Shown here piece by piece: positions 1,387-64,000 of a stretch of DNA of 64,000 nt. The notes beneath the pieces are model-generated. The model searched no databases and was not told the DNA's origin. It was given only the letters and a program-made list of their open reading frames with translations. The DNA is from Lichtheimia corymbifera B2541 (Eukaryota; Mucoromycota; Mucoromycetes; Mucorales; Lichtheimiaceae): the NCBI GenBank assembly GCA_000697475.1, contig JNEU01000916.1, positions 1 to 64,000 on the forward strand. Direction: 5' to 3'. Within the stretch, counting starts at the first letter, position 1. The number at the start of each line of letters is the position of its first letter. The position numbers and the translations under genes were made by a program.

Positions 1387-2935
1387 ATGGCAATCAATCA
1401 TCTTAAATACACCATGCGAGGAAGATATCCTATGGATGAAGCCAACGACATGGTGATTCGATCATTCAACTATATACGATCGCTTACACTGATGCGCTCC
1501 AAATCATCACTGCGAGATGTCTTTGAAAAGTATCTCTTTTCAAGCTTAGCAAAATTGGCAATATATCGTATGTATCCACATGGGATAGACAGACATGTAT
1601 ACTTACTGTGAAATGATAGCTACAGCATTCAACACATTCAAAGAAGGCATCTTGGTATTGGGATGGATCGGCACCCAACTTACGGATCCCATCCTCTATT
1701 TTCATGCACATCGCCCCTATCAACAGTACGGATATGCAGTTACATTGCAACAGATCTTGGAAATGTGCCCCAATTTTGATATCACTGTATTGCCATACAA
1801 CAATCGACATGTCTTGCATCAAGAAGACGTACCCAAAGCTACAAGAGCTGAAGCTTTATGCAGTGACAGGAACGGTAGATAGCCAGCACATGATGATGAT
1901 TCGGAAACACCTTCCTGGATTGAAGTTTTGGATATGGTAATCGAAGGCAGCTCAAGGCCATTAACGTTGGGTGATTCATGGGTGTCCGCCATACGTTATC
2001 TGGGATACGGCATTCGCCCGCACACATATTACAGAGGACTGGATTTGACGCGATGGGAACGACAACAGGGCTTGATCTGGCTTTCAATCACAGAAACCAA
2101 GGACTCGTTTTCACTTGACCATGTTGCACCGCTCATCATTGGTCATCATGCGACGTTGCAGGTCTTGCTGCTCACCTCGAAATTGGATACAAGGCAGACG
2201 CATACCACAATAGAGGCAATGCATCATTATCGGGATATTGAATTCGAGCAGCTCACGATGTTGACGATGAATTGCCAAACTTCCTTGTCAACATGTCATC
2301 GTATTGTGATTTTATCAGCTGGGTCATCGAGCGTGCTCCCCATTTACACACTGTGACATTAGACGGATATACAATGAGCGATCTACCTTTGAAAGCGTTA
2401 TCGAAATGCATGCCACTGCGCAACATGGACTTTGCCATACAAAACACCAATCGGCCTAGCAACTACGATACACTGGTGGCAGATTTTCTAAACGGTCACG
2501 TGGACTACATGGCTGATAAAGGAGGATCACGTTTGGAATTCATCACGGTCAGGATTCAAGAAGCGCACCCTACTCTCATTGCTGCCATACGAGAATTGAA
2601 ATGCTTGACCTCTTTTCATTTATTTACTACCAATCTTGCAAAAAGGCCATTTATGCAGTTGCTTAGTTCACTATGCGAAAGATGTCAAAACCTGAGAATA
2701 TTGCGTATCGTGCACGATGGTGAAATTCCCAACCGTGTCCTTTACTATATTGGGGGGTTATCGAATCTAAGGAGTCTTACAATTAGCGGTCGTATGGGGG
2801 ATGTGCAAGCTGGCGCTTTTAAGCTTACAACGTTGCCGCCATTTGAAGAAGCTATCCATCGATGTGCCGATTGACCCTGATATACGATCCATGCTCCTTT
2901 CAAGTAATCCAGGGTTAGAAATAGCAAGGAAGTGA
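1387..2935 (+). pseudogene. 5'-truncated F-box/LRR family pseudogene
   Basis: This is the leucine-rich half of a family member. The first recognisable segment (VIRSFNYIRSLTL...SSLAKLAIYR) aligns with the region just before the family intron, and a 52-bp phase-1 intron with GTATGT and ATAG borders sits at 1568-1619. After that the LRR reading frame moves at about 1830 (PKLQELKLYAV), about 2270 (ISWVIERAPHLHTVTL) and about 2830 (LKKLSIDVPIDPDIRSM), ending at a stop at 2933-2935. The N-terminal TPR and F-box portions are missing. The truncated end lies within 25 bp of the palindromic transposon end at 1362, so that element or an associated rearrangement probably removed it. At least three frameshifts make it non-functional. 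Confidence 0.75.
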
Positions 2936-2989
2936 ACGTCATGATAGTGTCCACATAGTTGTAATAAATCTCCATTCCAGCTGTACTTT

Positions 2990-3212
2990 GAATTGTACGC
3001 CACCAAAACCATCTTGGTACCAATTAGGTGGAGCTGTATGATAGCATACTGCATATGAATGACAGTTACACTGGAACTCTAGATCACCTGTTAGTCTTCT
3101 CGTTCTGTTTCTTAGCTCCTTTACACAGACATGGACTTCCGGACCTCTCCCACTATTATGGCAGAGCGGGTTGAATATGAACAAAGACCGCTTTTACGAT
3201 GCTATCTTTCAC
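2990..3212 (+). repeat. Left half of the dispersed repeat interrupted by the Tc1/mariner element
   Basis: This segment (TGATAGCATAC..., GTCTTCTCG..., GAACAAAGACCGC...) aligns in order with 8335-8530 and partly with 9570-9660. The alignment breaks exactly at the TA target site of the transposon and resumes at 4834, so the repeat was present before the transposon arrived. Confidence 0.7.
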
Positions 3213-3214
3213 TA

Positions 3215-3421
3215 CAGCTACTCACAAAATTGTTCAAGTGTTTTGCATTTCTGCATAAATCACGCCATTGCTCAATCCCCCACATATATAATATTGCCAT
3301 GTTTCATACCATATGATAGCCTACTTTTTTGCTATAATAGGAAACTCACGTGATCTGTGCCACGAAGAAATTAATGCAGCAACCGGGATTTGAAAATGAT
3401 CGGTACACTTGAACAATTTTG
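3215..3421 (+). repeat. Left terminal inverted repeat of the Tc1/mariner element
   Basis: It pairs with 4624-4831. The 16-bp box CAAAATTGTTCAAGTG is present near the outer end and, inverted, at the inner end. The known IR-DR class of Tc1 elements carries two direct copies of the transposase-binding box per arm; here the two copies face each other. Confidence 0.9.
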
Positions 3422-3442
3422 GAGCTACATTGACAGCTTTAT

Positions 3443-4468
3443 TTAATACTTCGTATGACCCCCCTTTGCTTTGTAACAAGCCTCAATACGACGTGGCATA
3501 CTTTCTATAAGCTTCTCGCAATACTCCTTAGTCATCTGCTTGTTCCAAACATGGGCAATTCGATCCCAGAGCTCATTGCAGGACTTAGGGGGCTCATCGT
3601 ACTCAAGTAGCTTGCGTTTGAGCTCAGCCCACATATGCTCAATAGGATTAAGGTCCGGAGAATATGATGGCCATGGGAGAACCTCAACATTATTGTCCTG
3701 GAACCATTGGGTGGCCTTGCGGGACTTATGCTTGGGGTCATTGTCTTGCTGAAATATGATGTCATTTATATCAACACCATAATACTCCAATGTTTCCTTG
3801 AATTCATCATTCAAAATGTTGCAATAAAGGTCGGAATCCATGCGTCCTTGAATTCTAGTGATGTATCCAGGGCCAAACCAACTGAAACAGCCCCACAGCA
3901 TGACATTACCGCCCCTATGCTTGTATACATGCATGATATTGCGCCGACGCAACTTGCCATCAGGGTCAATCCAGGTCCAATGGGCTCCATCACAGCCGAT
4001 ACGGTTCACCTTGGTCTCGTCACTGAAAACAACGCGTTTCCAATCCTCCACAGTCCAAGAACGATAAGCTTCTGCGAACCTGAAACGTGCATGTCGACGC
4101 GATCTGGTTAATGGCAGCAATTTCGGCTTCTTCATTGACTTGTAATTGAGTTTGGCCATTGCACGACGAATCGTTTGAGCGCTTGGAGTGGCCTTGTTAG
4201 GGTGAATAGCCTTGAGTTGACGGCTTGCGTCGGCAGCACTTTTATATTCACCAGTCAAGATCTTGCGAATGACAACACGAATGTCGTTGCTTGACATTAT
4301 GCTCTTGCGACCAGCTCCATTAGGCTCAATGTCGACATTAGCCTCTTCGCGAATAGCACGAATAGCTCCAAACGAGACACCAGTAAGCTTGTTGATATTA
4401 CGATAGGTTGCACCGCTCGCTAGAAGTTGTTTCACATCATCTTTCTTCTGCTGACTGATTTTACGCAT
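3443..4468 (-). CDS. Tc1/mariner transposase, DD34E
   Basis: A 341-residue protein, the usual length for Tc1-like transposases, which cut and paste the element at TA dinucleotides in the nucleus. Residues 1-45 form the first helix-turn-helix. A GAGRKS segment at 51-56 stands where the GRPR-like hook lies, and a second DNA-binding helix set spans about 60-115. The catalytic triad is visible: D150 in VFSDETKV, D242 in FQQDNDPKH and E277 in LNPIEHMW, with 34 residues between the last two (DD34E, the Tc1 group signature). No stop or frameshift interrupts the frame. The start is ATG 4468, about 155 bp inside the right inverted repeat. The frame is intact, so the protein may still be active; transcription and activity cannot be judged from sequence. 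Confidence 0.96.
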   Translation of the reverse strand: MRKISQQKKDDVKQLLASGATYRNINKLTGVSFGAIRAIREEANVDIEPNGAGRKSIMSSNDIRVVIRKILTGEYKSAADASRQLKAIHPNKATPSAQTIRRAMAKLNYKSMKKPKLLPLTRSRRHARFRFAEAYRSWTVEDWKRVVFSDETKVNRIGCDGAHWTWIDPDGKLRRRNIMHVYKHRGGNVMLWGCFSWFGPGYITRIQGRMDSDLYCNILNDEFKETLEYYGVDINDIIFQQDNDPKHKSRKATQWFQDNNVEVLPWPSYSPDLNPIEHMWAELKRKLLEYDEPPKSCNELWDRIAHVWNKQMTKEYCEKLIESMPRRIEACYKAKGGHTKY

Positions 4469-4623
4469 GCTGATAAACCCGTATAATAAAAGTTCAAGGA
4501 AAAACGATGAATCCTCGCAACGAACGTTAAAAGTTCTTTATTAGTGGCTTGTCTACAGGATATTAAGCAAGAAGTGAGATCTGAGCAGTAGATCCTTCGA
4601 TACATCATAATGCCAAGTACGCT

Positions 4624-4831: not shown

Positions 4832-4833
4832 TA

Positions 4834-5345
4834 TACAATACGGAAACATAAACCTGCGGCAAACACAAAACTTTACAATGAAGCATGGGGTGCTTACTAC
4901 AACCACTTTGATCAGCATGGCGGAAAGGATGACGTGTCAAAGTTTCAAGGTCCATTCGTGCAATCTCAATTTAGTGATTCTGATGTCGGCCAAAAAGTTT
5001 CAGAAGGTCGAGCTGGTTTTCATTCAGCCGGTAGTGAAATCACTGAATTTGAGATTGCAGACTTTGATGCTGAACTTTGACAGATTATACTTTCAGTCAT
5101 GCTGATCAACTTTGGTCTAGTAACCACCCTATGCTAGATTGTAACGCTTTGCGTTAGATCCATGTTTATCTTTCGTTTCCTTATAGTAACACATGCTATC
5201 ATAACAGTGATCTTTCCTCATGATCACCACGCTCCGAATCCATAGTGAGACAGGTACCGACTGGTGCGTTCCAGATTGAAAGGGACGCAGTCAGAACTAG
5301 AAGATCAAATAATCATAGGGAGGTACTATGTAACCTATAGTTTTG
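4834..5345. repeat. Right half of the interrupted repeat plus linker shared with 7870-8225
   Basis: 4834-4950 continues the repeat broken by the transposon (AATACGGAAAC..., AACACAAAACTTTACAATG...). 4930-5345 aligns with 7870-8225 through TGAGATTGCA, GTAGTAACCACC-like, CGTTTCC, ATAGTGAGACAGGTAC and TACTATGTAAC. No coding potential is visible; open frames here are translations of repeats. Confidence 0.65.
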
Positions 5346-6065
5346 AAATGAATAGAATTCATCACCATGTCGTAGCGGACCATCTCACCAGGTTTCAAGC
5401 TATAAAAACCGAAAACCAAGAAACTGCCTATTAAATCAAATTTCATGATTCCGGCGCATACCCCATCTCCGACCGCCTTATAGTGTTGATCCTATTGAAG
5501 ACTGACATTCAAAATGTGTGAATGAAACATGGGGTCTTTATGAAGACCAAATTGATGAGTATGCTGAGGAGCATCGTGTGACAAAGTATGATCATGGCAC
5601 CATGTGATCACAGCTTTAGCGAGCGCCGGACATGCTTATTTTGCTCTATCGGCCCCCGCATTAAGTTTGCCATAATGAAACGTAATGTTTTGAAATGAAT
5701 GGAATTGTTCAGTATGCCTTAGCGGACCATCTCACCAAGTTTCAAGGTATAAAAATGGAACCCCAAGAAACTGCCTATTAAATCGATTTTCATAAATCCG
5801 GCGCATACCCATCTCCGACCGCCTTATAGTGTTGACCCTATTGAAGACTGACATTCAAAATGTGTGAATGAAACATGGGGTCTTTATGAAGACCAAATTG
5901 ATGAGCATGCTGAGGAGCATCGTGTGACAAAGTATGATCATGGCACCATGTGATCCCAGCGTTAGCGAGCGCCGGACATGCTTATTTCGCTCTATCGGCG
6001 CCCGCATTAAGTTTGACACAATGAAACGTATTGTTTTGAAATGAATGGGATTCATCAGCATGCTG
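5341..6065. repeat. Tandem ~346-bp repeats, left block
   Basis: TTTTGAAATGAATRGAATT recurs at 5341, 5688 and 6032, a period of about 346 bp. Each unit carries GCGGACCATCTCACC, CAAGAAACTGCCTATTAAA, CCGGCGCATACCC and GAAACATGGGGTCTTTATG in the same order. Units are noticeably diverged from one another. The third unit breaks off where the alternating inverted array begins. Confidence 0.8.
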
Positions 6066-6084
6066 TAGCGGGCGTACTACAGCG

Positions 6085-7960: not shown

Positions 7961-7966
7961 TTTGGT

Positions 7967-10191: not shown

Positions 10192-12223
10192 TCAGGGTCG
10201 CTGTTCAATGTGGGGCACGTGCTGCTGTATCAATTCCAGGATATGGTCCTTGATGGGCATACTGTGGATAAAGTGTTTGAGGCTGCGCATAGCCACGAGA
10301 TTGACAAGATCGCTTTCAGATAGGGATGATCCATGGAGATGTAGAGATTTCAATGTGGGATGATTCTTGATAGCAAAGACCGAGCCATCAGGTACAGGTG
10401 AATAACCGCAATTCAATTCGAGGTATTCGAGTGAAGGACATCCTCTTCCAATCATAGTAAGAAGGGGGACATAATCTGCTGTTGCGCGAATACCCGCTGT
10501 GGTGATAACAAGCTTTTCAAGTCGGCATAAAGCAGCAAGTGCTGTACTCCAAGGAAACAGGGTAGAATAATAGTCAAAGGCAAGCTTGAGCTCCTTCAAG
10601 GGTGAATTCGTTCCAAGGCGTTCATGGTATTGCAATAATTGACCAAATGGTGTGGCGGTAGGTGCAACATGGTCTGCTTCAAGTCGTTCCAAATTGGGTA
10701 ATGCTCTGATAGCCTCGAAGATAGGATGCTCGTGTACATCATGGAAATCAACATGAACATGGCGAAGATGAGGTGATGATCGACGAATGATAAATGTGGC
10801 CAGGTCAATAAGGGCGTCATTGGGAGCAATGATTTCGAGTGTGTGCAAACGATCGAATCGCACAGAGGGATCATCCATAAAAGGCTTGCCATCACGCATG
10901 CCATTAATACCGCCAACGAGTACAATATGGTCCAATGTATGACGGTGTTCAAGTAGTTGTGGGATCAAGCCATCGGTATTTTCCGGTTCGGCATCTGTAT
11001 CATATCCAAATGCAAACTTTTGAAGGCCATGCAGATGCTGATCATAATCATTGTGGTTAAAAGGGAATATACCACCGCATCGCAGCACCTTGAGGTTTGG
11101 GCAATGTCGATGGATCGTGGTAAGATATTGTGCACTGGGAATAGGGAATATATCAAGGAACGCCAATGATGGTAGATGAGAAATGATATTGGTGATGGTG
11201 TTGGCTGGCAAGGCATTCTCCCAAATGGACAAGCAGAAATGTGTGATATTGGGATATTGACGTGAAAGGAGATCCACCTCAGAAGTACTAATGCTGACAG
11301 AAACAAGGTTGGGGCAGATTTGGAGGATTCGATTCAAACGGATGCCTGGCGATGTCATCGTTCCCTCATTGTAAAGACTAAAACGGGTCAAGTTGCCACC
11401 AATGGATTGAAGGATGACAAGCAGATTGTGATCATTACTTCCAAAGTCTATGGTAGATAAAGGTAAATACCACTGCCACATGCATGTTTTTTTCCTCCTT
11501 ACATTGAATGTGGAATTCAGTCAGCTGCGGGAAACGGCAGTTCATGGAGGCCAAAGCGTTATCATCATGGGTGCCACTTGCTAGGCCGATTTCAAATGAA
11601 AGTGATTTCACGTGCTGCGAGAACTTTTGCAGTTCGGATGATGAGAAAGGTTGACTACTTCGTGCACGATACATGCCAAAGCTCAAGTTGTTGCGCTGCA
11701 AGAAGAGCTGTCGCCATGTGCGAGAAATATAAAGGTAGGGGCACGGTGTATTGGCATCCAACTTGTAATTGTCCAACACCAAGGGCAATAGCTCTGATAC
11801 AACAAGATCCGAAGGGAGTTGGCTGATGAAATCTACCCGCTTGTTTGCAGCAGTCAATGCACTAGCATGCTGTCCTTGAAGGGTTGTGTAACCATCATCC
11901 GATGATTGTACACTGGTAAGACCTTTCTCATAGATTGCTGCTGCTTCTTGATGTCGTCCTTGCTGCTGATAGATATCGCCTGCTTTCAGGTAGCCATTGG
12001 AAGAGGTCGGGCAAATAGATCTCATAACGGCGGCATCGCGTAAAGCGAGATCAAAGTGGGCCCCATTAGCTAATGCCGTTGAACGCCGATTGAGATTCTC
12101 CATCAATTGAGATCCAAGCTGGGTGATTGCTTCCGTTGTTGTTGAAATGGTCGTGTCTGTTTGTTGAAGAGAAGGATGGATTGCTGGAAAAGGAGGAATG
12201 TTTTCATTGTTGAGTGGGTTCAT
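10192..12223 (-). CDS. TPR/F-box/LRR protein A1
   Basis: Two exons, complement(10192..11447, 11503..12223), give 658 aa. The 55-bp intron (GTAAGG donor, CATAG acceptor, phase 1) lies at the F-box/LRR boundary as in its paralogues; without splicing the frame breaks. Residues 1-40 are Ser/Thr-rich, about 45-105 are two TPR-like helical hairpins (FDLALRDAAV, GDIYQQQGRHQEAAAIYEKGL), about 130-178 are an F-box (VDFISQLPSDLVVSELL, then LYISRTWRQ), and about 240-650 are irregular leucine-rich repeats (PNLVSVSIS, LPSLAFLDI, CPNLKVLRCGG). This is the domain order of yeast Dia2 and Pof3, receptors of SCF ubiquitin ligases; the substrate is unknown. It is divergently paired with B1 over a 482-bp intergenic region and duplicated as A2. 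The start is supported by the conserved MNPLNNEN and a TATA box at 12292-12300. Confidence 0.88.
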
Positions 12224-12705
12224 TGTGTGGAGTGGTATTAGTAAAGAGAAAAAGGAGTAGGAAATTACAAGCTGGCGACACGCATCAAATACATTTTATA
12301 CATAAATCAACACCCCCACCACGTTTGAATGACTGTACGGATTAAAGAAAAACACACATGCCACGTTCACGTAAAAGTAATACTGGTCATGGAAAAGAAA
12401 AGGATGATGGGTTAGCATAATTGTGCAACCTCACTTGCCATATTGGATTCTCGGCATGCATGCCAACAGCTTGATAGGCTTTATTGCAGCGTTCAATATA
12501 TGATCATTTATGTATTTCCATCCATTTGAATATATTCTGGGATGGTTTTTGGGTGGTCTTACTATGTGGTCTTGCCGTGTGTGAGGAACATGCAATGATA
12601 AAAGGATTGGGATGAATGGCAGGTATGGTTACACAGCACGAGGATAAAGCGTTTCAGCTCAGCTTCTCAGTCAGCTTTCTTTTATTAACACATACCAACT
12701 GCACA
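12224..12705. promoter_or_regulatory. Shared divergent promoter region of A1 and B1
   Basis: 482 bp between two diverging start codons. TATAAAATG on the minus strand (12292-12300) serves A1, and an ATAAAAGGAT box near 12600 could serve B1. An inverted CCAAT (TATTGGATTC near 12460) and TTTATTGCAGCGTTCAATA are conserved in the corresponding spacer at 17800-18238, more strongly than one expects for unconstrained DNA after duplication. Confidence 0.6.
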
Positions 12706-14820
12706 ATGTCTGAATCGCAATGGAAAACCGTGGGTCGCCAACACAGGATTAGAGTCGACCATCGTGGACACGCGAGCCTCATTGCCGAGTCTACATGCGC
12801 TATTGGAATCACCATTCACCAATTGCTACAACAACTCGACGATCGCGCTAAAAGTTTGACAGCCTGTGCTCAGTTCGACTTGGCCCTTAAAGACGCTGCT
12901 CTCATGAGAGAAATGGCACCTCGATCAAGCTTAGGCTATTTGCGTGCATGCGATGTATATTCCAGTCAAGGGAGACAGCGGGAAGTCATTGACATGTGCA
13001 AACGAGGATTATTTGCTATTTCGTACGATGATCCTGATTTTCAGCAATTGCGAGTGATCAAGAATGAAGCCCAAACGATCAGCGATCAACGCGTGGACTT
13101 TCTGAGCAAGCTACCAATTGATGTTCTGACCTGCAATCTTATGCCGAGGATCATGGATTCTATCATGCCATTCGATTCAAAAATTCCATCCCCATTGCTT
13201 TATGTTTCCCGAGCATGGCATCAGTGTATTCTACAAGCAAACAACGGGCTATCATTTTATGCAAATATAGACAACAATGGGACGCTCAAGGAAGGACACG
13301 ATCATCTTTTACGTTATGCACCCTTTGTGACAGAATTGGATGTGAATGGGGTTTGTCATTTATTGGAGCATTCGACAGGACCATCACTTTCAAATCTTTT
13401 TACGCGAGGATCCTTTACAAAACTTACAACATTGAATATCCAAGGTATGTATTTTTAAAAGGGGTAAAGGAAAGAGGAATTGAAATGGCTCAAAAGAAGT
13501 CATGTAGTGGATGCGAGATCAATGATCATCATGGCTACACGATTCAAACCTGCATTGGAACTAGTGGGCAGTCGACTCAAACACCTCTCCATCACCAAGA
13601 ACCCACATTATTCAGCTTCACGTGGATACAGCGTCATTCTCAGCGACATTATCCGATGCTGTGACAAGCTCGTATCTTTGACAGTTGATCAATTTCTAGT
13701 GGAGACAGCATCGTCATCATCAAAAATGGAATGTACAGAGATGCGGCATTTGACGATCTTGCAGGCATCACCTCGCTTATCATCCCAAACGGAATTGACT
13801 ACCATGCTGATGGGATTCCCGTTCTTGACTCGCCTTGCTATCAATCCATCAGTTGCGTCTACCATACTTGCAAAGATTTATCATTATTGTCCTCTGCTTG
13901 AACAACTTGTATATTGGGATAGTGATCAGTCTCATGATGGTACAACGACGACGACGTTTAGGGGCAACAGCATATGCGTGGCAAACCAACAAATGAATTT
14001 GACCATGGAAAGCATCGCCTTATGTTTGATGCAACAAGCGGCGTCTCTCGACATATTCGAATACCAGGGCATGTTTAATTCGAATGATCGCTTGGCTTTG
14101 ACGATGTTGCCTGACTTGGGTTCATTCCCAAAACTACGCGCTATCAGCTTCCGCCATGTCAATGCCTCTTGTATTCCTTTTTTACTATGGGTGATCCAGC
14201 GTGCTCCTCACCTTCGCTTTATCAAACTACATCATCCAGTCATGGATTCTTTGGTAATCGATGCCATCATGCGACTCCAGCATGTCCACACCTTGAATAT
14301 CACCACACAAGATGGCACAACACTTTTACCTTTAACGAAGCACCATGTTCGCATCGGCAGCCGATCCACCCTACGCCACATTCAGGTGTCAACTACCGGT
14401 ACCATGTGCACTGCACTTTGGTTTCAAAGAATTGCAAATCTGCCGAATCTTGCGTCCTTTGAGCTTTATGTCCCCAAGGGTATTCTGTCTACCTTTGCAC
14501 CGTTCTTTCAAGAGATGGCGCGAGTATGTGAGAAATTGAAATGGCTAAAGTTGGTAGTGGATAAAGCACAGGGTAGGGTAGCCGCCCCTATGCCTTCCGT
14601 TGCAAGCCCTGTTATCGGAGCTTTGACATTATTTCACAACCTCAGTGATCTCACTCTGTATGCATGCATGATTTCCGATACCAGCTTGATGTTATTGTCC
14701 AAGATGCGCAACTTACGTCGTCTGAAGCTGTGCACCAGTTTCCCTATTGATCCCCTCACCATTGGGCACCTTCGAAGCGCCGTCCATGAAGTAGTTATTG
14801 AGCAGTATCCACCAGAATAA
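12706..14820 (+). CDS. TPR/F-box/LRR protein B1
   Basis: Exons 12706..13444 and 13508..14820 give 683 aa. The 63-bp intron (GTATGT, TGTAG, phase 1) contains a stop, so splicing is required. I chose ATG 12706 (MSESQW) because the paralogue B2 starts at the matching MPESRW; a longer in-frame extension to 12616 is not conserved. TPR-like hairpins span about 45-105 (AQFDLALKDAALM, DVYSSQGRQREVIDMC), the F-box about 128-175 (VDFLSKLPIDVLTCNL, LLYVSRAWHQ), and LRRs follow (AASLDIFEYQG, APHLRFIKLHHP, LPNLASFELYV). It is expected to be a substrate receptor of an SCF ubiquitin ligase, inferred from architecture only. An AATAAA polyadenylation-like signal overlaps the stop codon. B1 and A1 are only distantly similar to each other, while B1 and B2 are close. 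Confidence 0.88.
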
Positions 14821-15768: not shown

Positions 15769-17799
15769 TCAGCGTCGCTGTTCAATGTGGGGCACGTGTT
15801 GCCGTATCAATTCCAGCATATGGTCCCTGATGGGTGTACTATGGATAAAATGCTTGAGGCTGCGCATTGCCAAGAGATTGACAAGATCGCCTTCAGGGAT
15901 GGATGATCCATGGAGATGTAGGCATTTCAGGGTGGGATGATGCTTGATAACAAAAACAGAGCAATCAGGTATGGGTGAATAGCCGCAATTCAATTCGAGA
16001 TATTCGAGAGAAGGACATCCTCTTCCAATCATGCCAAGAAGCGGTATATAATCCGTTGGTGCCCGGATACTCGATGTGACAATAACAAGCTTTTCAAGTC
16101 GGCGTAAACCAGGAATTGCTTTTCCCCAATCAATCAGGGTCGAATAATAGTCAAAGCGAATTTTGAGTTCCTTCAAGGGTGAATTGATGCCAAGACGTGC
16201 ATGGTGTCGCAGTAATTGTCCAAAGGGTGTCGAAGAAGGTGCTACATGGTCTGCTTCAAGCCGTTGTAAATTGGGTAATGCTTTGATGGCATCGAAGATA
16301 GGATGGTCGCGTATGCCATGGAAATCAACATGAACATGGCGAAGATGAGGTGATGATCGACGAATGATAAATGTGGCCAAATCAATAAGGGCGTCGTTGG
16401 CAGCAATGATTTCGAGTGTGTGCAAGCGATCAAATCGCACAGAAGGATCATTCATAATAGCCCTGCCATCCTCCATATCACTGATACCGCCAACGAGTAC
16501 AATATGATCCAATGTAAGACGGTGTTGAAACAGTTGTGGGATCAAGCTATCGGTATTGTCAGGTTCAGCACCTGTATCATATCCAAATGCAAACTTTTGA
16601 AGACCATTAAGATGCTGATCATAATCTTCGTGATCGAATGGGAATATACCACCGCATCGCAGCACCTTGAGGTTTGGACAATGGCGATGGATCGTGGCAA
16701 GATATTGTGCATTGGGTATAGGCGATATATCAAGGAACACCAGTGACGGAAGATGAGAAATGACATTGGTGAGCGTACTGGTTGGTAATTCCTTCTCGCA
16801 AATGGACAAGTAGAAATGCGTGATATTGGTATGTTGTGATGAAAGGAGATCCACCTCGGAAGTATCCATGCTGAGAGAGACAAGGTTGGGGCAGATTTGC
16901 AAGATGCGACTCAAATGGATGCCTGGTGAAATCATCATTCCCTCATTGTAAAGGTTGAAATGGGTCAAGTTGCCTCCAAGAGATTGAAGAATAAAAAGCA
17001 GATCGTCATCGTCGCTCTCAAAGTCTATGTAGATAAAGGTAAATACCAAGAAAACATGCATGTTTTTTCGCTCCTTACATTCAATATGGAATCGAGTCAG
17101 GTTGGGGAAACCGCAGTTCATGAAAGCTATAGCGTTATCATCGTGGGTAGGGCTTGCTAGGCCGATTTCAAAAGAGAGTGACTTTACGTGCTGAGAGAAT
17201 TTGTGTAGTTCACATGTCAAGAAAGGTTGAAGGCTTCGTGCACGGTAAATGTGAAACTCCAGGTTGTTGCAATGCAAGATACGTTCGCGCCATGTACGGC
17301 AGACATACAAGTAAGGGCATGGTTCGTGTGGTGATAGCTTGTAATTGGAAAGGAGCAAAGGCAAGATCTCTGTGACCACCATATCCAATGGCAGTTTACT
17401 GATAAAATCGACACGTTTGTTGGCTGCAGTGGATGCGTCGGCATGCTTCATTTGGAGGGTGGTGTAACAGGGATCAGATGATGGCACTATATCAAGGCCT
17501 TTTTGATAGATAGCTGCTGCCTCTTTAGATCGTCCTTGTAGCTGATATATCATGCCTGCATTCAAGTATCCAGAAGAAGCTGTTGGGTTGATTGTTTGCA
17601 TCACCTCGGCATCTCGCAGAGCAAGATCAAGGTGGCCGCCATGGGTTAATGCCGTTGAACGCCGATTGAGATTGTCCATCAATTGAGATCCAAGCTGGGT
17701 GATTGCTTCCGTTGTTGTAGAAATGGTGGCGTCTGTTTGTTGAAGAGAAGGATGGATTGCTGGAAAAGGAGGAATGTTTTCGTTGTTGAGTGGGTTCAT
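15769..17799 (-). CDS. TPR/F-box/LRR protein A2
   Basis: Paralogue of A1 with the same 1256-bp and 721-bp exons, complement(15769..17024, 17079..17799), 658 aa when spliced. The intron (17025-17078) has GTAAGG and CATAG borders but is 54 bp and free of in-frame stops, so an unspliced transcript would also encode a full-length 676-aa protein with 18 extra residues at the F-box/LRR boundary. The start is at MNPLNNEN; an in-frame extension to 17874 crosses the TATA box at 17853-17862. TPR region about 45-105, F-box about 130-178 (VDFISKLPLDMVVTEIL, LYVCRTWRER), then LRRs to the end. The predicted role is SCF substrate recognition. Differences from A1 are concentrated in scattered LRR and TPR positions. 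Confidence 0.88.
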   Translation of the reverse strand: MNPLNNENIPPFPAIHPSLQQTDATISTTTEAITQLGSQLMDNLNRRSTALTHGGHLDLALRDAEVMQTINPTASSGYLNAGMIYQLQGRSKEAAAIYQKGLDIVPSSDPCYTTLQMKHADASTAANKRVDFISKLPLDMVVTEILPLLLSNYKLSPHEPCPYLYVCRTWRERILHCNNLEFHIYRARSLQPFLTCELHKFSQHVKSLSFEIGLASPTHDDNAIAFMNCGFPNLTRFHIECKERKNMHVFLVFTFIYIDFESDDDDLLFILQSLGGNLTHFNLYNEGMMISPGIHLSRILQICPNLVSLSMDTSEVDLLSSQHTNITHFYLSICEKELPTSTLTNVISHLPSLVFLDISPIPNAQYLATIHRHCPNLKVLRCGGIFPFDHEDYDQHLNGLQKFAFGYDTGAEPDNTDSLIPQLFQHRLTLDHIVLVGGISDMEDGRAIMNDPSVRFDRLHTLEIIAANDALIDLATFIIRRSSPHLRHVHVDFHGIRDHPIFDAIKALPNLQRLEADHVAPSSTPFGQLLRHHARLGINSPLKELKIRFDYYSTLIDWGKAIPGLRRLEKLVIVTSSIRAPTDYIPLLGMIGRGCPSLEYLELNCGYSPIPDCSVFVIKHHPTLKCLHLHGSSIPEGDLVNLLAMRSLKHFIHSTPIRDHMLELIRQHVPHIEQRR

Positions 17800-18238
17800 T
17801 GTGTGGAGTGGTATTAGTAAAGAGAAAAAGGAGAAAATTACACGCATCCAATGCTTTTTATACGCCGCTGGCATAAATCAACACCCCACACCCAATTCAT
17901 GTGACTGTACGGATTAAATAAAACACACATACCACATCGAGATAAAAGTAATATTGAAAGGATGATGGATTGGCATAATTGTGCAACCGCACTTTTCATA
18001 TTGGATTCTTGGTATGCATGCCCACAGCTTGATAGGTTTTATTGCAGCGTTCAATACATGATCATTTATGTCTTTCTATACATTTGAATATGTCTTAAAA
18101 GGTGTTCATGTGGGTCATTTGCTATCATAAAAGGATCGGGAATGAATGGTTGGCATGGTTACACAGGACCGGGATAAAGCGTTTCAGCTCAACTCCTGAG
18201 TCAGCTTTCCTTTGTAATATACACACACCCACTACACA
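17800..18238. promoter_or_regulatory. Shared divergent promoter region of A2 and B2
   Basis: 439 bp between two diverging start codons, homologous to 12224-12705. TATAAAAAGC on the minus strand (17853-17862) lies 54-63 bp before A2, and an ATAAAAGGAT box near 18127 lies before B2. The inverted CCAAT and GCATGCC..CACAGCTTGATAGG segments are retained. Confidence 0.6.
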
Positions 18239-40643: not shown

Positions 40644-40904
40644 ATGTATCTATACTCCTTGGCATGTCTTTTACAGCTCCCACAGCTAAAACAACTCACC
40701 CTTGCTGTGGATCACGATATCACAGCTGATTTTTGGGAACCTCTGCTCGTTTTTCCGCAGCTACAGTGTTTGACCGTATACCCTGAACAACATGCGCTAG
40801 TCTCCCTTGACCGCGACCGTTTCAAAAAAGAAAGACCGGATCTCAAAATAGTGCTTCTCAAACACTTTGAAAGCCTTTCAACCTCGGCGGGTTCTTTATT
40901 GTGA
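40644..40904 (+). pseudogene. C-terminal fragment of an F-box/LRR gene
   Basis: The open frame reads LPQLKQLTLAVDHD, FPQLQCLTVYPEQ and KERPDLKIVLLKH before a stop. This is the end of the leucine-rich region; compare KRPDMEVVVNT at the end of the 38256 relic and LKSAFPNVVIG at the end of B2. No 5' part is adjacent. About 165 bp downstream, 41069-41106 resembles 38 bp of the C1 TPR coding sequence (GGTGAAGG..GTTTACTG), possibly another scrap. Confidence 0.6.
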
Positions 40905-41470: not shown

Positions 41471-41481
41471 AAGTTCTGAAG

Positions 41482-49830: not shown

Positions 49831-51865
49831 CTATGATAGTAATGAGAATGCTAGGCGATCTGATGGTGAAAATGGCATGTAGTTGACGATAGGAATGTTC
49901 TTCTTTAGAGTTTCGAGTGTAAGGTCATCCATGAGCGTCAAGAGGTCGAGGCATTGCAAATTAGGCATGGACAAAATAGCAATGATATCATGATTGGAAA
50001 TGGATTCTGCCACGATTGCCAAATGTTTGATCCGAGGATGAGCACCAAAGAGAACAAGGCTTTTTTCAGGGAGACCAACAGCACCACAATTCAATTCAAG
50101 GTGCTCTAATGCCAAGCACCCTTGTGCAAGTACATCCATCATGGCAACATAGTTTCTAGGAAACGACATGGATTTGATGCGTATCTCCAGATGTCGCAAA
50201 TTGACTAGTTGAGCAATCGCACGTAACCATGGACACGGAGGCATATCAGGATACAGCAGCATTCGAATCTCTTGGAGGGAAGAGTGATCACCCAAGTTGA
50301 CGTGATGCTGGATCAAGTAATAAAGCGCATTCGAATAGGGTGCTATGCATCTTGGAGAAAGCGATTTCAAATATTTCAACTCGGTCATGGCAACGAATGC
50401 CTGATGATGATCATCCCCTGATTGAATAAACATCTTGATGGCTGTCAAGTGTGGTGCAAGGCGAATAATGGATGCTGCCAATTTTAACAGTGCGTCGTGT
50501 CTGGCATCAATTTCCAAATAGGTAAGGCGCTCAAAAACGAATCCACGACGCCAGTTCACAGGTTCTTTGATGCGACCTCTCAAGATGACTTTTTCAAGCG
50601 ATTTCCAATGACGTGAAAGAATCGATATCAAATCATCAGGATTCAATTCGATTTCGCTTTGACCAATAGAGACTTTTTGTAAACCTGGAAGATCCTTGTA
50701 GGTTCTATCACCACTGTCGTCACCATACGCTAGCAGTTTCATGTTGGGGCAATAATGATGCAAGGTTGGTAATAGGCGAGAGCTAGGTACGGATCCCACA
50801 TTCAATGATGACAAGGATGGGAGGTGTCCAACAATATTGAGCATGCTCTTTTCTGTAATGGCATGGCGAGAAAGTGCACGCAGATAAAGGTCCTTCAAAT
50901 TGGGATACGGATGGGTCAGCGTATTCGCCATGGTGCCGGCAAAGAATGCTGCGTCAAGAGAAACCAATTGGGAACAGTGATCCAACACAAAGCGCAAGTC
51001 AATTGGATCCTCCAAGCTCACAATCAGCTTTAACCATGTCAATGTGCCACCCACAGTCGTGAGACAGGTGTTCAACACGCTTCGATCACCTCGATCTACA
51101 TATATCCCATGAATACATACATAATTCATTTGAAAAAGAAAAAAAAACATACGTACGATGCAAGATGAGTTTGACAAGATTTGGATAACTGGCTTTTAAC
51201 AAGACATGTGCAGGATCATATTCTGTGCCATACTTGTTATGAGGAATAACCAGGGATTTGATATGGGATGCAAACTTGATGACTTGAATGGAATCGGAAA
51301 CATCCTCGTGTATTATAAAAGTTAATGGGTTGCTTGCCAAAAGACGCTGTTGCCATGCATGTGATACATAAAGATAAGGACATGGCTTGTCGGCATCAAG
51401 TCGATTATTTTCAAAGAGGCGTGGTGTGATGCTGGTAGTGACGATATCGGGTGGTAATTGGGTGATGAAATCCACGCATTTGGTATCAGCATGCATCGCC
51501 TCAGCGCGTCTCTTTTCCAAGTTGGTGTAACCATGATCCGAAGGTGTTACTGTTTCAAGTCCTTTGTCATACATGCCGACTGCTGCTCGCTGATTGCCTT
51601 GTTGCTCATAAATGGCCCCTGTTCGCAAATACCCAACAGACGATCTCGGTGCCAACACTCGCATAGTGGCTGCATCGCTTAATGCAAGATGGAATTGACC
51701 TCCTCTCGCCAATGTCGCTGAACGCTCATTGAGCTTCTCCACCAATCGAGATGCAAGCTCAACGATCTCAATCGTTACGTCTGAAATACGACTATCGTCT
51801 TTGCCGTGGAAACAAGAGGTTGCTGGTACCGAATACAAATCAACAGGAGAATACATTTCGACCAT
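49831..51865 (-). CDS. TPR/F-box/LRR protein D
   Basis: Exons complement(49831..51095, 51157..51865) give 657 aa. The 61-bp intron uses GTACGT and GTAG borders in phase 1; the alternative GTATGT donor four bases further in does not restore the frame. The start is MVEMYSPVDLY. The TPR region lies at about 45-105 (GQFHLALSDAATM, AIYEQQGNQRAAVGMYDKGL), the F-box at about 130-178 (VDFITQLPPDIVTTSIT, LYVSHAWQQR), and LRRs occupy exon 2 (LPSLSSLNVGSVP, CPNMKLLAYGDD, LVNLRHLEIRI, MPNLQCLDLL). It is closest in layout to A1/A2. Its first ~90 coding bases and promoter are duplicated as a dead fragment at 54155-54390. The predicted role is SCF substrate recognition. Confidence 0.87.
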
Positions 51866-52020
51866 GTATGAAGGAAAGGGGCGAGGAAAAAAAAAGATGC
51901 GGTATTACCAGCCGGTTGATGCACGATGACCATGTCGGCAGCCTTGAATGAAACATTTATGCACCACACCCTCATTTTGAATAGATCCACAATCATCATA
52001 TTATTACTATTGATAATAAA

Positions 52021-54390: not shown

Positions 54391-56003
54391 CTAATTGTCA
54401 TCGCTATCTGAAACGTACTCTCCATCTTGATACTTTGGCTGGTAACTTGCGCTCAATGGGCCAGACGGAAAAGGACAAGCTACTTGACAACCTTGCAGCT
54501 TTTCATGCACATGCTGAGTTTGGACACGTTGCACTTGATCCCAATCGACTGTCTCTCCATTCTCAAAGACACCTTGTAATGCGCTGCGGTAGAGCGATGC
54601 ACGAGCGGTGCCAATACCTGGGCCGCTCCAGGACGGTAGATCGTGTTTTTTGGTACACAGAAAGCTCATCTGGACGTACATCTATAATCATCTCTTTTGT
54701 TAAATGATGGATCATGTAGGGGGCAACACACATACTTACAAACACAAAGGTAAGGGCAATAACAGGCCTAGGCACTTTGCCATCCAAGGCATCATCATCC
54801 AATGTGAATCCGATTCCACTTCTCTCATGGTAAAACACCGTGGCAATGACATCCCCCAATGCACCACTTTGCAAGATAGCTCCTGATGACAAGTAATCCT
54901 TCCGGGCAAATCTTGAGGAGGATGTTAATATACATATACTTGAATGCATTGGTTGGGAGTAATATGTACATACCTCGTTGCATCCATCATATACTTGAAT
55001 TGTCGTTTGCGGTTCTTTTTGCATATTTCATGAAGAGTCGTTGCATCAAATGTGTAGGACTGCATGACATCCTTGATAGCACGGGATAGTCTGGAACGCC
55101 AGTCAGCTGCGGATTTGGCAATCTTGCGCAAAAAAATGAGCGTCAAAAGGTTATTCCTTGCTTTTACTTGCACCCATCACTCATATACCTTATACTGGAC
55201 CACTCGTGTAATACGAATCCGCTGTCCTTGAGGAACATTGAACAGTCGTTTGCACAAAGATTGAAGGCTGTTGCATGCTTCACAGACGGGTAAACATCCA
55301 CGAGGACCATGTAATCCCGTAACGTATGCCAAAAGTCTCCATCCATGTCCTCAACACCAGGAACGAAGATACTGCTGTTGTGAGGTCTGGATCCAAACAT
55401 GGTTACTATCACAGCAGCATAAACACGTTGTATGTATCTTACTTACTCTTCCTCATCTTGCTGCAAGGTGGGTTCCATCTTGATAGTAGACCTATAAAAA
55501 TATAAATGTCAACACATATTATCAGCCAAAAGTACGAAAACTCAACTACCTACCTTTCATACGACGCCAAGTCCTCACGGTCCTCTTCCTCCTCATCATC
55601 ATCATCAATATCATCCCTGGTATATTTCCAAGATTAATCCTTGTCATTGACCACAAATATTTATACGGCATACATACTCCATGTATTCACTTTCGGTATC
55701 AGAGGTGATTTCCGGCAAATTGCAGCTTTGATCATCGCTTGCATCAAGACCTATTATTGTCATGGATCACATGTTTGTTAAACAAAGCGCCTGTTGAGTG
55801 AGGTGGGGCGTACTTACTCTGTGATGGTTCGCGTGAGGGAGACGGTGATCCTATTACAATAGGCGCATCTCGACATCCTGGTAGTGCTGCCATAGACCCA
55901 TTGGGATTGGAACCAACACCAGCAGCAGCAGGGAGAACAACAGGCCCATGACGTCGTAACACTTTGAACTTGCCATCCGTGGTATCTACAAGCCCTTCTT
56001 CAG
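54391..56003 (-). pseudogene. Unrecognised multi-exon gene, copy 2 (possibly damaged)
   Basis: Tandem paralogue of 52021-53610, offset about 2.37 kb. Exons: 54391-54681, 54740-54911, 54974-55122, 55189-55374, 55447-55491, 55554-55616, 55678-55750 and 55818-56003, all with good splice signals and matching phases except one. Exon 55189-55374 is 186 bp against 190 in copy 1, and the 4-bp difference shifts its second half (the sequence still reads LCKRLFNVPQGQRIRIT in the neighbouring frame). The eighth exon, broken in copy 1, is intact here (EEGLVDTTDGKFKVLRRHG, SPSPSREPSQ). Upstream, 56100-56350 holds a diverged version of the possible zinc-binding region (AYHCLGCQ). Confidence 0.55.
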
Positions 56004-57619
56004 CTAAACGATGCGAAAAAAAAAAAAAACAGATTCAACATACCATGAGATAAGCTGCGTTTGTGCATTTTGAAAGCGTGATGAATTGAAAAAGAAAGAT
56101 GTGAAAAAAGAAAATGAGAATGACCACAACCTATGTTTATTTGCATTATTACCCACACTCACAACGTCGGATGACTCTTTTTCCATGATTCCCATGCTCA
56201 CTTTTGTATATCATTTTCGATTGATCCCTTTCTTGACAACCCAGGCAGTGGTAAGCTACACATTTTACTGATGAGACTTTTTACTTTTGTCCACGGTCTC
56301 CTCGTGTATCCATACCTTGTGTATCGGTCAATCCTTCCTTATAACAATGCATCATAGCCGCCAGCCAGTACAAAGGTGTTGCCAATATGGTTCATCACCC
56401 AAAGTATATACGCTTGCAAAAAGGCAAGATCCATTAACTTTGAGAGCCCAGAGACGTAGACGGTGGCGATGATGACCCCAAATGGCGTACAATAAAGTGA
56501 CATTGGTGATGATGATGACCATGTTGATCCACAATCTTATACAATGTAGCTATGGTGATGGCCTGATGATGATGCATAAAGAATTGAAGATGTGGCAATG
56601 ATGATGATGAAGATGATCCAAAATGGCGTACCATAAAGGTGACATTGGTGATGATGATCCATGGTCGCTTATAAATGCAGCCATGGCGATGCGGTGAGGG
56701 GGTGATGGTGATCCACAAGCGCGTGCAAAAAAGGTGACATTTATGATGATGGTAATCCAAAATGGCTTGATTCAAATATTCGATTCCTCAACCGGGCCAA
56801 CCAATACAATTGAGATCCTTCGTCATAGCTGTCGTTTCCAAAGGTTTCGCTGAAGAAGTTGCAAGATCACGTGTTGAAGCATGCAGCATTCCTTGGTTGT
56901 CATAGAATGATAGATACCCTCCTATATAGTCCTCCTCAATAAACCATCCCAAACAATCACCCAAGCAAGGTTTACCTTAAGCTTATTGTTGAACTAGTGA
57001 ATGAGCTGGCTTTGAGGACTGTCGATATACATGGCGTGTTGCTGGTCAACCAGCCAAGTGCATGTGGTGCAGATTCCGCTTCTCCGATTAGCACAATGGG
57101 GCAGTCTGTCGGCATCTGATGATCTGAATCCACGTAACGAATTGCTCCATCTCGGTGTCGTGTGTTGTTCCATTCAGTTGTTGTGAAGGCATGGGGGTGG
57201 GGAGATCGCGTGAGCTGAGGCATTGGTGGTGGAGGAGGAAACACGGTCGGGGAAAAACAACGGGGGCTACCAATGCAGCATGCTGTGTAACAAAATGACA
57301 CGTTGTATAATGGCCATGAGTGTAATTCAATAAACTGGCCTTCTGTATATAAACAATCAACCATCATAGATGCAGTATAGGTCATTGTTTAAACAATGGC
57401 GATGGTGGCCAACACAATATATATGGGTAATTATTCCCTAGAAATGACGGTGGGATTGATCCGTTATCCGTTCTAAGGCGTACCCTTTGTTGATCTCAAT
57501 CAGGTGAAGTGTGCTTGCGTTTTCCTAATAAATTGCGTGTATGATGATTATCATGTTTACCCATTCTTTTTCCTTCCTTTTCTTCTCTGCTCTCACTCCT
57601 TGAAAAGGATCCAACAGCG
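56004..57619. other. Upstream region of copy 2, degenerate tandem repeats, unassigned tract
   Basis: 56455-56770 contains three to four diverged units built on ATGGCGTAC.ATAAAGGTGACATTGGTGATGATG; one unit occurs at 54100-54150 upstream of copy 1. A 137-codon minus frame at 56972-57385 (TTEWNNTRHRDGAIRYVDSD) is the longest here but has no supporting signal. Confidence 0.4.
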
Positions 57620-59409
57620 ATGTTTAGACGGATTCATTCTGGACGACACAACAACGCACCATCAGCTGTTCCCAGAACAAGAGCTTTAGGTGGTGCTCAG
57701 AATCATCAGACAGGTGTATGGCATGGGCGGTTACGGAGCTATGATCAGCGTGTGCGCACAAAGCGAGTGGACTTTGTTTCGAGACTTCCTTTGGAGCTGG
57801 TGTCTACCTTGATTTTACCATCTTCCTTGATACTTCCATTACGTCACACATTTGCCTATTTGCATGTATGCAGAACATGGCGACAACGTGTTTTGCAATC
57901 GGTTCAGCTTCATTACATCAGCGTTGGAAGAGTAACCTTTGGCGGCAAGCAAATCATGATCGCCTATGCTCCTTATATCACCTGCATTACGTTGGGACAT
58001 CCTTCAGAATTACCATTGTATTTCTTTTCACGTTCACAGTTTGCCTGCCTCCAATCATTGATTCTTACCTGTAAGCGCGATCCATATATGCAATCGATGA
58101 CAAGGCTAACATACATGCATCAATAGTGGTTTCTCAGAACGATATGCGTGCAGTGGTTCGATTGCTGCAGCCAATTACAGCGGTATTGAAGACTATCAAC
58201 CTCACCATTTCTCATGCGCTACCCAATGCCGCCATTGCGTTTAAGGATATCATGCCTAATGGTTCACGTTTGGAGGCATTTACATGCAACAAGATTGATA
58301 TGACTGGTTTTATCGCCCACGACCACGTTCACAAATACCCCAACCTCAAAAAATTGATCATCACATCCATCACGCACCCGCTGGAAGAAAAAGACATTAT
58401 TGGATTGCTTGAACGATTTCCATCATTGCAGCTTTTATCGTTACCACAATGTCAACATTCAACGCCACTCTCCCTCATGCCTCAATACTGTCCTTTTCTT
58501 GACTCGCTTATATACTCGGTGAAACAGAAAGCCTTTGAAGCAGAGTACCATCCACGTACAGACAACCAAGTCGGACTCCATAGTGTGTATCTGGATACTG
58601 GAGAAAATTTCCACATTGAAGACATCGCCTCTTTATTGGCAAGCCATTATGATACCTTGATCAGCATCAATATGATGGGCAAGATGAATCATCATCCAGG
58701 TGGCATCAGCAGCGCAATCCTTAGCCAACATGTACACTTTAAGCGACTCACCCGTTTGATGGTCTACCCTGGTGACGACGATGATGATATCGATAGTCGA
58801 AGTGCATTATCAGAATGGATCATTAAAGGTGCACCGAATGCCAAGGAGATCGAAGCACCTCGATGCAACATCAGCCATCCCGATGTCTATCATACCATGA
58901 CAAGAATGACAGACCTTGAATCACTCTCGTTTGCATTACCATCCACAGCCTTGATTGATGGCCTCGAATACCATGGCACGACTTTGAAACATCGGTCGAA
59001 ATTGCAAATATTGAGCGTCGATGTCCATTACAGCGGTGAGCAATGTCCACGTGTATGGAGAGCGGTAGCAGGTTTATCCAATCTACGTGAACTTTTCATG
59101 CAACTTCGTGGTGCTACTTTGGATGAAGAATTTGTTACCTTTATTGAAGCACTCGCGCGTGGATGTCCAGAACTGACACAATTGATCCTGGAATCACCAA
59201 CAGACTCTCCAACTGCAATCATTGCCAAGTTTCCTTTATATCCCAAGCTCGAAGAGCTCACTCTTGGTAGTCCAAATTTCTGGGATGCATGCTTGCTCGA
59301 CGTTTTAAAATGCCCATTTCTCCAAGCTCTTTATATGGATAGCACACAAATGACAGATCATGTGGCTATTGCTTTAGCTTACTTGACTGGTGATGCGTAC
59401 TTGGAATGA
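57620..59409 (+). CDS. F-box/LRR protein E, without the TPR region
   Basis: Exons 57620..58070 and 58127..59409 give 577 aa. The 56-bp intron has GTAAGC and CAATAG borders, phase 1, and a textbook GCTAAC branch site. The F-box starts at about residue 50 (VDFVSRLPLELVSTLIL, then LHVCRTWRQRVLQ), so the ~85 residues of TPR hairpins found in A-D are missing; the N-terminus is instead short and Arg/Gly/His-rich (FRRIHSGRHNN, HGRLRSYDQR). LRRs fill exon 2 (YPNLKKLIITSIT, FPSLQLLSLPQC, LSNLRELFMQLRG, CPELTQLILES). The frame is intact throughout. The absence of TPRs suggests different partners or looser regulation than in its relatives. Confidence 0.85.
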
Positions 59410-60718: not shown

Positions 60719-61013
60719 TCAATATCTTTTATACTTTGAACGATCAACCAGACAAGCCGGAAAGGTACCCCACTGCGTGTATGCTAAGAGAATACATAAA
60801 TGGAGGGTTAGTACATGAAAGGTCAATAAAGGTTTTTTTTATCTTACCGGTCTCTTTTGCACAGTACTCGACAGTATGGCAATTTTGCAAACCAGCGTCA
60901 ATACATTTTTTGTGGTATTGATCGTATATTTTGGCCTCAAGGTATTCAAAAGCGGAGACATAGTTGATGCTTGCAACAGCAATGAGGATGGTAGCGAAGA
61001 TAAAATACTTCAT
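60719..61013 (-). CDS. Small secreted cysteine protein 3
   Basis: Exons complement(60719..60783, 60848..61013) give 76 aa. The 63-bp phase-1 intron has GTAAGA and TCTTAG borders and a perfect TACTAAC branch site. The first exon has exactly the same length (166 bp) as in protein 1. Signal peptide MKYFIFATILIAVASINYVSA, then C-x7-C-x5-C (KCIDAGLQNC, HTVEYC) and, after the intron, a fourth cysteine in FPACLVD, matching QPACEID of protein 1. TATAAAAT on the minus strand at 61058-61065 is 45-52 bp before the ATG. It lies 32-35 kb from its two paralogues and on the opposite strand. Confidence 0.8.
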
Positions 61014-61057
61014 GTTGTTTATAGTATGGAATTTGAGACCACCGCCCTATAATGGTC

Positions 61058-61065
61058 ATTTTATA
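61058..61065 (-). promoter_or_regulatory. TATA box of secreted protein 3
   Basis: TATAAAAT, 45-52 bp upstream of the start codon. Confidence 0.6.
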
Positions 61066-62756
61066 TCGCTGAAAGGGACGATTTTTAGGGAGCTTCATCA
61101 TGCATGTCGATCATAAGCCCAATCAGGAGGAGAATGTATCCCTCGTCCTTACCACGAATACTTAGCTACACATACATAATACATCAATGTACTTTCCATT
61201 GGATTCCTTCAAAGATCAAGCTACAGGTTTCATATATTCATCTAGTGCACAATCGAAAGTGAGTTAATAGTGGGTGTCATGAAAATCCGTTTGGTTGTAG
61301 CTACCCTAAACGTGTTCACTATATGCATGGATGGGACAGTGGGAGTGGGCAACCGGCAACGTTGCACGAGTATATCGCACTGCCTCCATGATAAATCAAC
61401 AACCTATTACTGCCATGATATAACAAGTATCCAAAAGCATTATCAGTGGCAACTTGCACAACATAAATAATTACAAAGCCGTGTGAGGTGTACACCTGAC
61501 CATGCAAAATACTAGATGACGAATATGTACCTAACGTGGTATGTAAACAATAAACAAAGAGGCACTCAGTGCTGCACGATTGCTTTTTGCACGGAGGTTC
61601 CGCCTCTCCTTTGACAAAGGACGATGTATCCTGGCAAAGTTACCAAAAGCTTATTTTTAGCAGCTTCACGACCTCCTGAAAAAGAATAATGGTTTGCGTG
61701 AAGGAAGTGAATTTGGTGATGATGACGGTGCATGTAAATCATTATTCTCGAAAAGAGATTGTATTGGTAGTCATACAGCATAGTCCACGTGCAATTCCAT
61801 ATTGGTTGAAAGCATGCATACAACAATGGTGGTATCATACACGCCCACCAAAACATGCACTGTTGATAAAGGACCACTCATTGCTTACTTGTATTGGCAT
61901 TTGGCGGTATCTTGATCCCCGCAGTTTTGTTTCGTTTCGCAGTGTTACACATGCATTCATCTTTTTCTCCCTAAAGCATTGCAAAATAGTCAGATCACAT
62001 TTGGGCCAGTAAGTGATGTACGTATTCTCATCCTGCCTTTGCAGAGCTAAAACCTTGTTGGCACCGCACACAGCAAGGAGAACGACTTTAACGAAAGCTG
62101 ATTACATGTTGGTCACATGATAATACTTGGCATAGCCGTTACTGGATATCATTTCATGGCCTTGAATGAATGTTTCGGTGTTACTATCATTATGGTAAGC
62201 CCTCCATGCAAGGTGATTAATAGACACACAATGCCCCTCAAGAAATTGTACCGAAACGAAAAGAAAATTCTAAAAGATCCAAAGATAACCTTAAAAGCAT
62301 CCATCTTGGTGAAGCATGGCCGTGTAGTACGTAAATGATTTCAGGGGTCAAAAATCTCTATCTTTTACTATGCGTGGGGTAACAGATATAAGGGAGGATA
62401 TGAAGGTGCGGTCACGTGTCACTGTTATGGGAGCCCCGCCTGCCTGCATCTATTTCTTGTGCTCCAGTCAACCGCGCTTGGCCAACTCTATATTCCGCAA
62501 GGACAGGATAGGTAAATACAACCAACGTATACAAGCACGTACTGTACCGATCTTGCGTCTCCATCTCACTTTGCCATTGTAAACAAAAAGTTTTCCGCAA
62601 TGAGCCACCCACTTGAGATCCTCAACGCGATCGTTGTTACCAAGGCCACGCGTTGTCAGGGATACGCAGAGACACGCTACGTATAAGAGAAAGCCAGTTT
62701 CCAGTATGAATATATCATAAGCAATCAGTGAGTTCACAGGGACATTTTCTTTTCAG
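61066..62756. other. Unassigned tract
   Basis: The minus frame 62468-62737 (FLLYVACLCVSLTTRG, VEDLKWVAHCGKLFVYNGK) could be a secreted protein; a degraded version of its first part lies near 35355-35400. Other frames here lack support. Confidence 0.3.
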
Positions 62757-62921
62757 TGTGCCCAAGACCATATCTATTTCGAGCGAGCAAGTCAATATCT
62801 ACTTGAACGAACATCCAAAAATGACGTGCCTCCTTTTCCTGAAACTTCAATCCCAAAGGATGGTAATCAATCACGCCAACACTCTCTTTGTTGTTGTGAC
62901 CACCGGGAGCACCCTGAGTGA
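62757..62921 (+). CDS. Candidate terminal exon
   Basis: A strong TTTTCTTTTCAG acceptor opens a 54-codon frame (CAQDHIYFERASQYLLER, then a CCC cluster) ending at TGA. No upstream exon on the plus strand could be assigned, so this is only a candidate. Confidence 0.25.
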   Translation, partial: CAQDHIYFERASQYLLERTSKNDVPPFPETSIPKDGNQSRQHSLCCCDHREHPE

Positions 62922-63285
62922 TCCTATTATGGTTTGGATGAGGACAGCTATTATCATAGGCAATGCTTCATAAATAAATATCATTTTTTCTGACTCATAA
63001 TGCATTGCATCATCATCATCATTTAAAGGATTGCTCACGCGAGGGGTAGTATTCTGGATATGGATCAAAATGTCATAAAAGATCACATGTATCTTTATAC
63101 AAGCAATACATGAACATAGGATAGCTTAACCAACAGGCATCCAGATTGGCCCACAAATGGCGTAACACAAAACTATATCTCGATTCGACTCCCAAAATAA
63201 CGCGTCTGACACAAAAAAGACATTTAATAGTTTCTATTTATATCTTTTTGTAAGCTAGTAAAGTGACTATAGTGGGGTACTAATA

Positions 63286-64000
63286 ATGGCTGCAGTGTGT
63301 GGGATGAAGCATCCATCGTCATGGTGCCACAAGGCATCCTTAATTTCCAGCTCCTTTATTTTCTTCACATACTCCCAAATGCAAACACACGTCTCCAGCA
63401 ATATGCTCTCCTCAATAGACAATGACGATTCCAATTGTGACCAGCCCAATGTACTTGCATTGACAACACCCATCAAGAAGTCTGTGGATCTCGTTCGCGA
63501 TCTGCCATGGGAGATTGTAAAGTGTCACATTGTGCCAAGAATCTTTGGAGAAGGCCGTCCCATAGTCGGTTTCAATCAACCTTACTCGTACTTGGATGTG
63601 TGCAGCACTTGGACTAAACGAATCATATCGGCAGATGACAGCATACATTTCATCCTCAGCGTGGACCATCCTCTGTCAGAACATCATCGCACGCGCTTAA
63701 GAATGATGGCACCTGGTATCAAGTCGCTCACATTACCGGATTTAGGTGCTTGCAATATTCCTGAACTTTAAAAATGCGGCCAATTTCTCTCATTGACTAA
63801 GTTGACTATTGAAGGTAACTACTGGGGATGATGAGTGTGCATACATGGGTTACTAAATGCATGCTTAGTCACATGCTCTCAAGAAACGTTGCTGCAGTTA
63901 CTTGCAATCGCTACCAACTTGACTCATTTGGATATGACTTTTTATGAAAACCACCAAGCACCATTTGCTTTATTCGATGTACTTGATTGTTGCCCTCAGC
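63286..64000 (+). pseudogene. F-box/LRR protein F, start of gene, in-frame stop before the intron; cut by window end
   Basis: The F-box is clear (VDLVRDLPWEIVKCHIV, then LDVCSTWTKRI). Like E it has no TPR region; the likely start is ATG 63379 or 63286, downstream of a TTTATATC box near 63237. TAA at 63769-63771 interrupts the frame 14 codons before the conserved 54-bp phase-1 intron (63815-63868, GTAACT, CTTAG, TACTAAAT branch). After the stop the frame stays open and family-like (LSLTKLTIEG, then LLAIATNLTHLDMTF) to the end of the window. Either it is a fresh pseudogene or the stop is a sequencing error or unusual; the remainder lies outside. Confidence 0.65.

Follow-up and report, generated by a model that had tools for sequence, protein, structure and literature searches.

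A large, clustered TPR-F-box-LRR gene family in Lichtheimia, a likely repertoire of SCF substrate receptors

Introduction

Large, fast-evolving F-box families are known in nematodes and plants. The expanded families of Caenorhabditis are described as growing in tandem at the species level and losing members, with a conserved F-box end and peaks in the ratio of non-synonymous to synonymous substitution rates (dN/dS) at the substrate end (PMC8665587), and a species-specific expansion of 31 orphan F-box members is reported from another zygomycete, Choanephora cucurbitarum (PMC5238444). Among fungal F-box proteins, Dia2 of Saccharomyces cerevisiae and its named homologue Pof3 of Schizosaccharomyces pombe carry N-terminal tetratricopeptide repeats (TPR), an F-box and C-terminal leucine-rich repeats (LRR; PMC3405993). 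For Lichtheimia corymbifera, the account of Schwartze and colleagues gives the largest expansions as 331 and 242 genes, presented there without assigned function, alongside a 56-gene group of which 52 have a HET domain (PMC4133162). Here we describe a family of TPR-F-box-LRR genes in L. corymbifera B2541, starting from a stretch of 64,000 nucleotides (the window; bases 1-64000 of the 78,602-base contig JNEU01000916.1, C267 in our numbering) and extending to the 34.98-Mb, 432-contig genome. The family is real, large and fast-turning, and is best read as a genus-level birth-and-death repertoire of likely substrate receptors of an SCF (Skp1-cullin-F-box) ubiquitin ligase; among the expansions of F-box receptors already described, it is a new variation.

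Results

Merging 147 matches of one exon-1 query and five chosen by eye into loci, we count at least 142 family loci on 46 contigs, a lower bound because 150 of 161 candidates were scored, and one in which five single-locus relatives are included. Clustering is pronounced: 115 of the 142 loci have another within 10 kb, against a mean of 10.9, and never more than 24, when the loci were placed at random 200 times. Close neighbours lie on the same strand in 63 of 84 cases, and contig C270 bears 19 loci, all on a single strand. The massive duplication proposed in a preliminary description of the window holds genome-wide. Of 59 sampled loci, a set that includes the five single-locus relatives, 33 have both exons open, 17 are incomplete or broken, and 8 sit at the ends of stretches. 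Six further loci, lacking TPR, were recovered with the TPR-less window locus H as query.

Distinct loci number about 140, some contigs repeating one another. Family match scores are equal at constant offsets in C7 and C134, and nearly so in C5, C48 and C352; these repeats are either contig ends present twice or segments that were duplicated recently. The overall F-box complement of the genome is very large, with at least 141 PF12937 matches, five of which were seen to coincide with family loci.

A protein search found 47 relatives, and all 44 that are named come from Lichtheimia; a profile search, scoring only the 7,994 candidates with the most words in common, yielded 24 proteins, of which 21 belong to the family and three match weakly, at 8-14% coverage. 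In a tree of LRR exons, genes from the analysed genome interleave with those of L. ornata, and clades Y (C270) and Z (C316) contain genes of the analysed genome, accompanied by no more than one sequence from L. hyalospora, either within the clade or next to it. Three C270 LRR exons are 96.6-99.5% identical to proteins of L. corymbifera JMRC:FSU:9682. Two relatives, P0014 (L. corymbifera, 1211 aa) and P0039 (L. hyalospora, 1129 aa), resemble two members end to end and are perhaps gene-model errors in arrays.

The TPR and LRR assignments are clear. By both profile and structure model, a C-terminal LRR horseshoe follows the F-box segment, as expected of FBXL proteins, and TIR1, COI1, MAX2/D3, SKP2 and FBXL17 are among the best profile and model matches. 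Judged by homology, the F-box appears real though divergent. Profile-profile comparison (hhalign) of the family segment with the F-box gives 93-97%, compared with no more than 3.7% for 30 shuffles; proline and tryptophan are invariant in the segment, and leucine almost so. Five single-locus relatives, picked for their PF12937 matches, share the family layout and pass a Pfam F-box cut-off, bridging the family to recognizable F-boxes. The genome also encodes a Skp1 domain at two loci, and cullins.

Constraint differs along the protein. Values of dN/dS are 0.33 for the TPR, 0.36 for the F-box and 0.44 for the LRR, so that TPR and F-box are the more constrained, a comparison that the preliminary description had suggested making. 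Strong signs of positive selection come from the LRR of one four-gene clade; tested against simulated nulls, the clade Y LRR has omega above 1. The earlier picture of recognition genes under changing selection survives in part: the LRR is less constrained and one clade shows strong signs of positive selection, but most other clades show weak selection or none, and pairs within the window are, on average, under purifying selection. The nearest relatives of the two exons differ, with good support, in 8 of 77 genes.

Scanning all open frames of the window with exon profiles made from 40 homologues revealed 12 family loci (lettered A1-H by our own scheme, which may differ from that used before), on mixed strands and in every state from intact to scrap, in agreement with the eleven or more members claimed at the outset. 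Both exons are open in six (A1, A2, B1, B2, E and D), a seventh (G) is TPR-less with an open LRR, two (F and H) have frame breaks, and three are LRR-only relics. Nine loci carry a TPR-F-box or F-box exon; because these exons match the profile at E 1e-13 to 1e-82, and A2 matches P0001 of L. corymbifera at E 0, the main loci are not chance resemblances. The A1 LRR exon shares 98% identity with P0001, a protein of strain JMRC:FSU:9682. A short GT...AG intron of 54-63 nt occupies the same place, the F-box/LRR junction, in all eight window genes read (H was not among them).

On the minus strand, A1 (10192-12295; ATG at 12223; intron 11502-11448, 55 nt; spliced frame of 682 codons, counted from the start of the open reading frame) and A2 (15769-17877; intron 17078-17025, 54 nt, in frame and without a stop) each consist of a TPR-F-box exon and an LRR exon, as do B1 (12616-14820; intron 13445-13507, 63 nt; 713 codons) and B2 (18146-20371; open from 18218; intron 18999-19052, 54 nt) on the plus strand. 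The same structure recurs in E (29632-31870, plus; intron 30548-30608, 61 nt; 725 codons), in D (49831-51904, minus; intron 51156-51096, 61 nt; 670 codons) and in F (36063-38174, plus; intron 36856-36914, 59 nt), whose frame breaks near the end of the LRR exon (frames 36893-38065 and 37989-38174). The TPR-F-box-LRR order described earlier is read in the family, but G (57548-59409, plus; intron 58071-58126, 56 nt; 601 codons) and H (63262-64000, plus, running past the window end to C267:65159, its LRR in two frames) have an F-box without the TPR block. The relics comprise 1387-2874 (plus), where a probable exon 1 tail, recognized on reading the sequence 1300-1700 by eye, precedes an LRR exon split over several frames (1620-1937, 1883-2353 and 2242-2871; LRR profile E 2e-6, 5e-5 and 4e-16); 38256-39406 (minus), in two frames (E 6e-37 and 7e-23); and 40602-40901 (plus), a weak last piece of an LRR exon (E 3e-4 over 59 positions).

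Few other recognizable genes lie between the family members. A Tc1/mariner-type transposase frame (3443-4537, minus; PF13358 DDE_3 at E 8e-15, with HTH_Tnp_Tc3_2 under its cut-off) adjoins the first relic, and at 5340-6071 a 346-bp unit occurs about twice in tandem, with a 91% match. Eight of nine further long frames gave no domain match at E<=0.01; the ninth, 54566-55027, has a weak DUF6532 match, under cut-off.

Discussion

We propose that these roughly 140 largely clustered loci probably encode substrate receptors that can take each other's place on a single SCF ubiquitin ligase. The proposal builds on the domain order, the intron conserved in the genes read, the clustering, the decay, the exon discordance, the lower dN/dS of TPR and F-box, and the LRR selection of one clade. 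In such a system each protein would attach to Skp1 through its divergent F-box and capture a target with its LRR horseshoe, and the bound target would be marked with ubiquitin for proteasomal destruction, with the short TPR block serving as a tether or regulatory handle. With Skp1 at two loci and cullins present, many receptors would share few cores, as family knowledge leads us to expect.

Several observations weigh against this proposal. None of 40 relatives matches the Pfam F-box profiles PF00646 or PF12937 at E<=1, nor does any of ten window pieces (B2 exon 1 not being among them) match a Pfam F-box; in the model of P0001 the F-box region reaches a predicted local distance difference test score (pLDDT) of only ~57-70, and the matches listed for the exon-1 model are TPR folds. 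In the LRR tests two of six clades survive Bonferroni correction for 11 tests; positive selection is not general. Nor is the signal confined to the LRR, two exon-1 tests giving p 0.007 and 0.012 uncorrected; in the larger sets X and Z, p is 0.0024 and 8e-5 for exon 1 and 0.023 and 0.0011 for the LRR. Exchange between paralogues can inflate such tests, and of 13 clade Y sites over 0.8, ten lie outside the strand zone. On the docking side, the central segment might have lost F-box function altogether, leaving TPR-LRR proteins that serve recognition but have given up docking on Skp1, a reading that would account for the Pfam result and for a stretch of about seven residues without partner in canonical F-boxes; the profile-profile score, the near-invariant residues and the F-box dN/dS make it quite improbable. 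The earlier assignment of an F-box stands on profile-profile comparison and the bridging relatives, but not on Pfam.

A wider challenge is neutral birth-and-death, in which tandem arrays grow and decay by unequal exchange and most copies do little, a process akin to the genomic drift proposed for F-box genes in plants (PMC3030570). The many broken copies fit it, the mean LRR dN/dS of ~0.44 (0.48-0.65 in tested clades) is also compatible with relaxed constraint, and change peaks at exposed strand positions and the loops after them. We nevertheless regard it as unlikely, because more than half of the sampled loci keep both exons open despite pair dS (synonymous divergence) of 0.3-1.1, the TPR-F-box is more tightly constrained than the LRR, clade Y exceeds its nulls, and several members have counterparts in L. 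corymbifera 9682 with 96-100% identity across an exon. That the family instead comprises housekeeping receptors of the Dia2/Pof3 type, acting in the replisome or silencing and duplicated for dosage or stage-specific use, is suggested by the shared domain order; the number of loci, LRR identity of only ~21-32% between window lineages, and the five single-locus relatives, whose better F-boxes make them more natural candidates, render it highly improbable.

A role in recognition is plausible for these putative receptors. As to targets, the least certain part, the best candidates are proteins that change fast and are foreign, selfish or from rival individuals. A bolder extension, which we think unlikely, is an innate-immunity-like repertoire in which conserved TPR-F-box exons and variable LRR exons recombine across the fixed intron, generating new specificities that would destroy foreign intracellular proteins of mycoviruses, endobacteria, transposons or incompatible partner nuclei. 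The two-exon layout at least suggests a way to shuffle docking and recognition separately, and the family could be used to test whether repertoires of this kind act in intracellular recognition in fungi. A Pfam-invisible F-box family this large in a Mucorales mould could account for part of Lichtheimia's unassigned gene expansions; it may lie within the 331- and 242-gene groups of L. corymbifera (PMC4133162).

Set beside described systems, the family shares its layout, and layout only, with Dia2 and Pof3. The comparison drawn in the preliminary description is apt for domain order but not for copy number, these being normally single-copy receptors whereas the Lichtheimia loci are many and clustered, with an F-box below Pfam detection; Dia2 is the nearest layout precedent. 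Plant and animal FBXL proteins such as those matched above likewise place an F-box before an LRR horseshoe, but the Lichtheimia family adds a TPR block in front, lacks a detectable Pfam F-box and forms large arrays. The Choanephora members, as reported, contain PF12937 (PMC5238444). For evolutionary pattern the nearest precedent is Caenorhabditis, as far as those families are described (PMC8665587): there as here, tandem expansion and loss accompany a conserved F-box end and a faster-changing substrate end, while the Lichtheimia family has TPR ahead of the F-box and LRR at its substrate end and, in the genes read, a single intron that separates docking from recognition.
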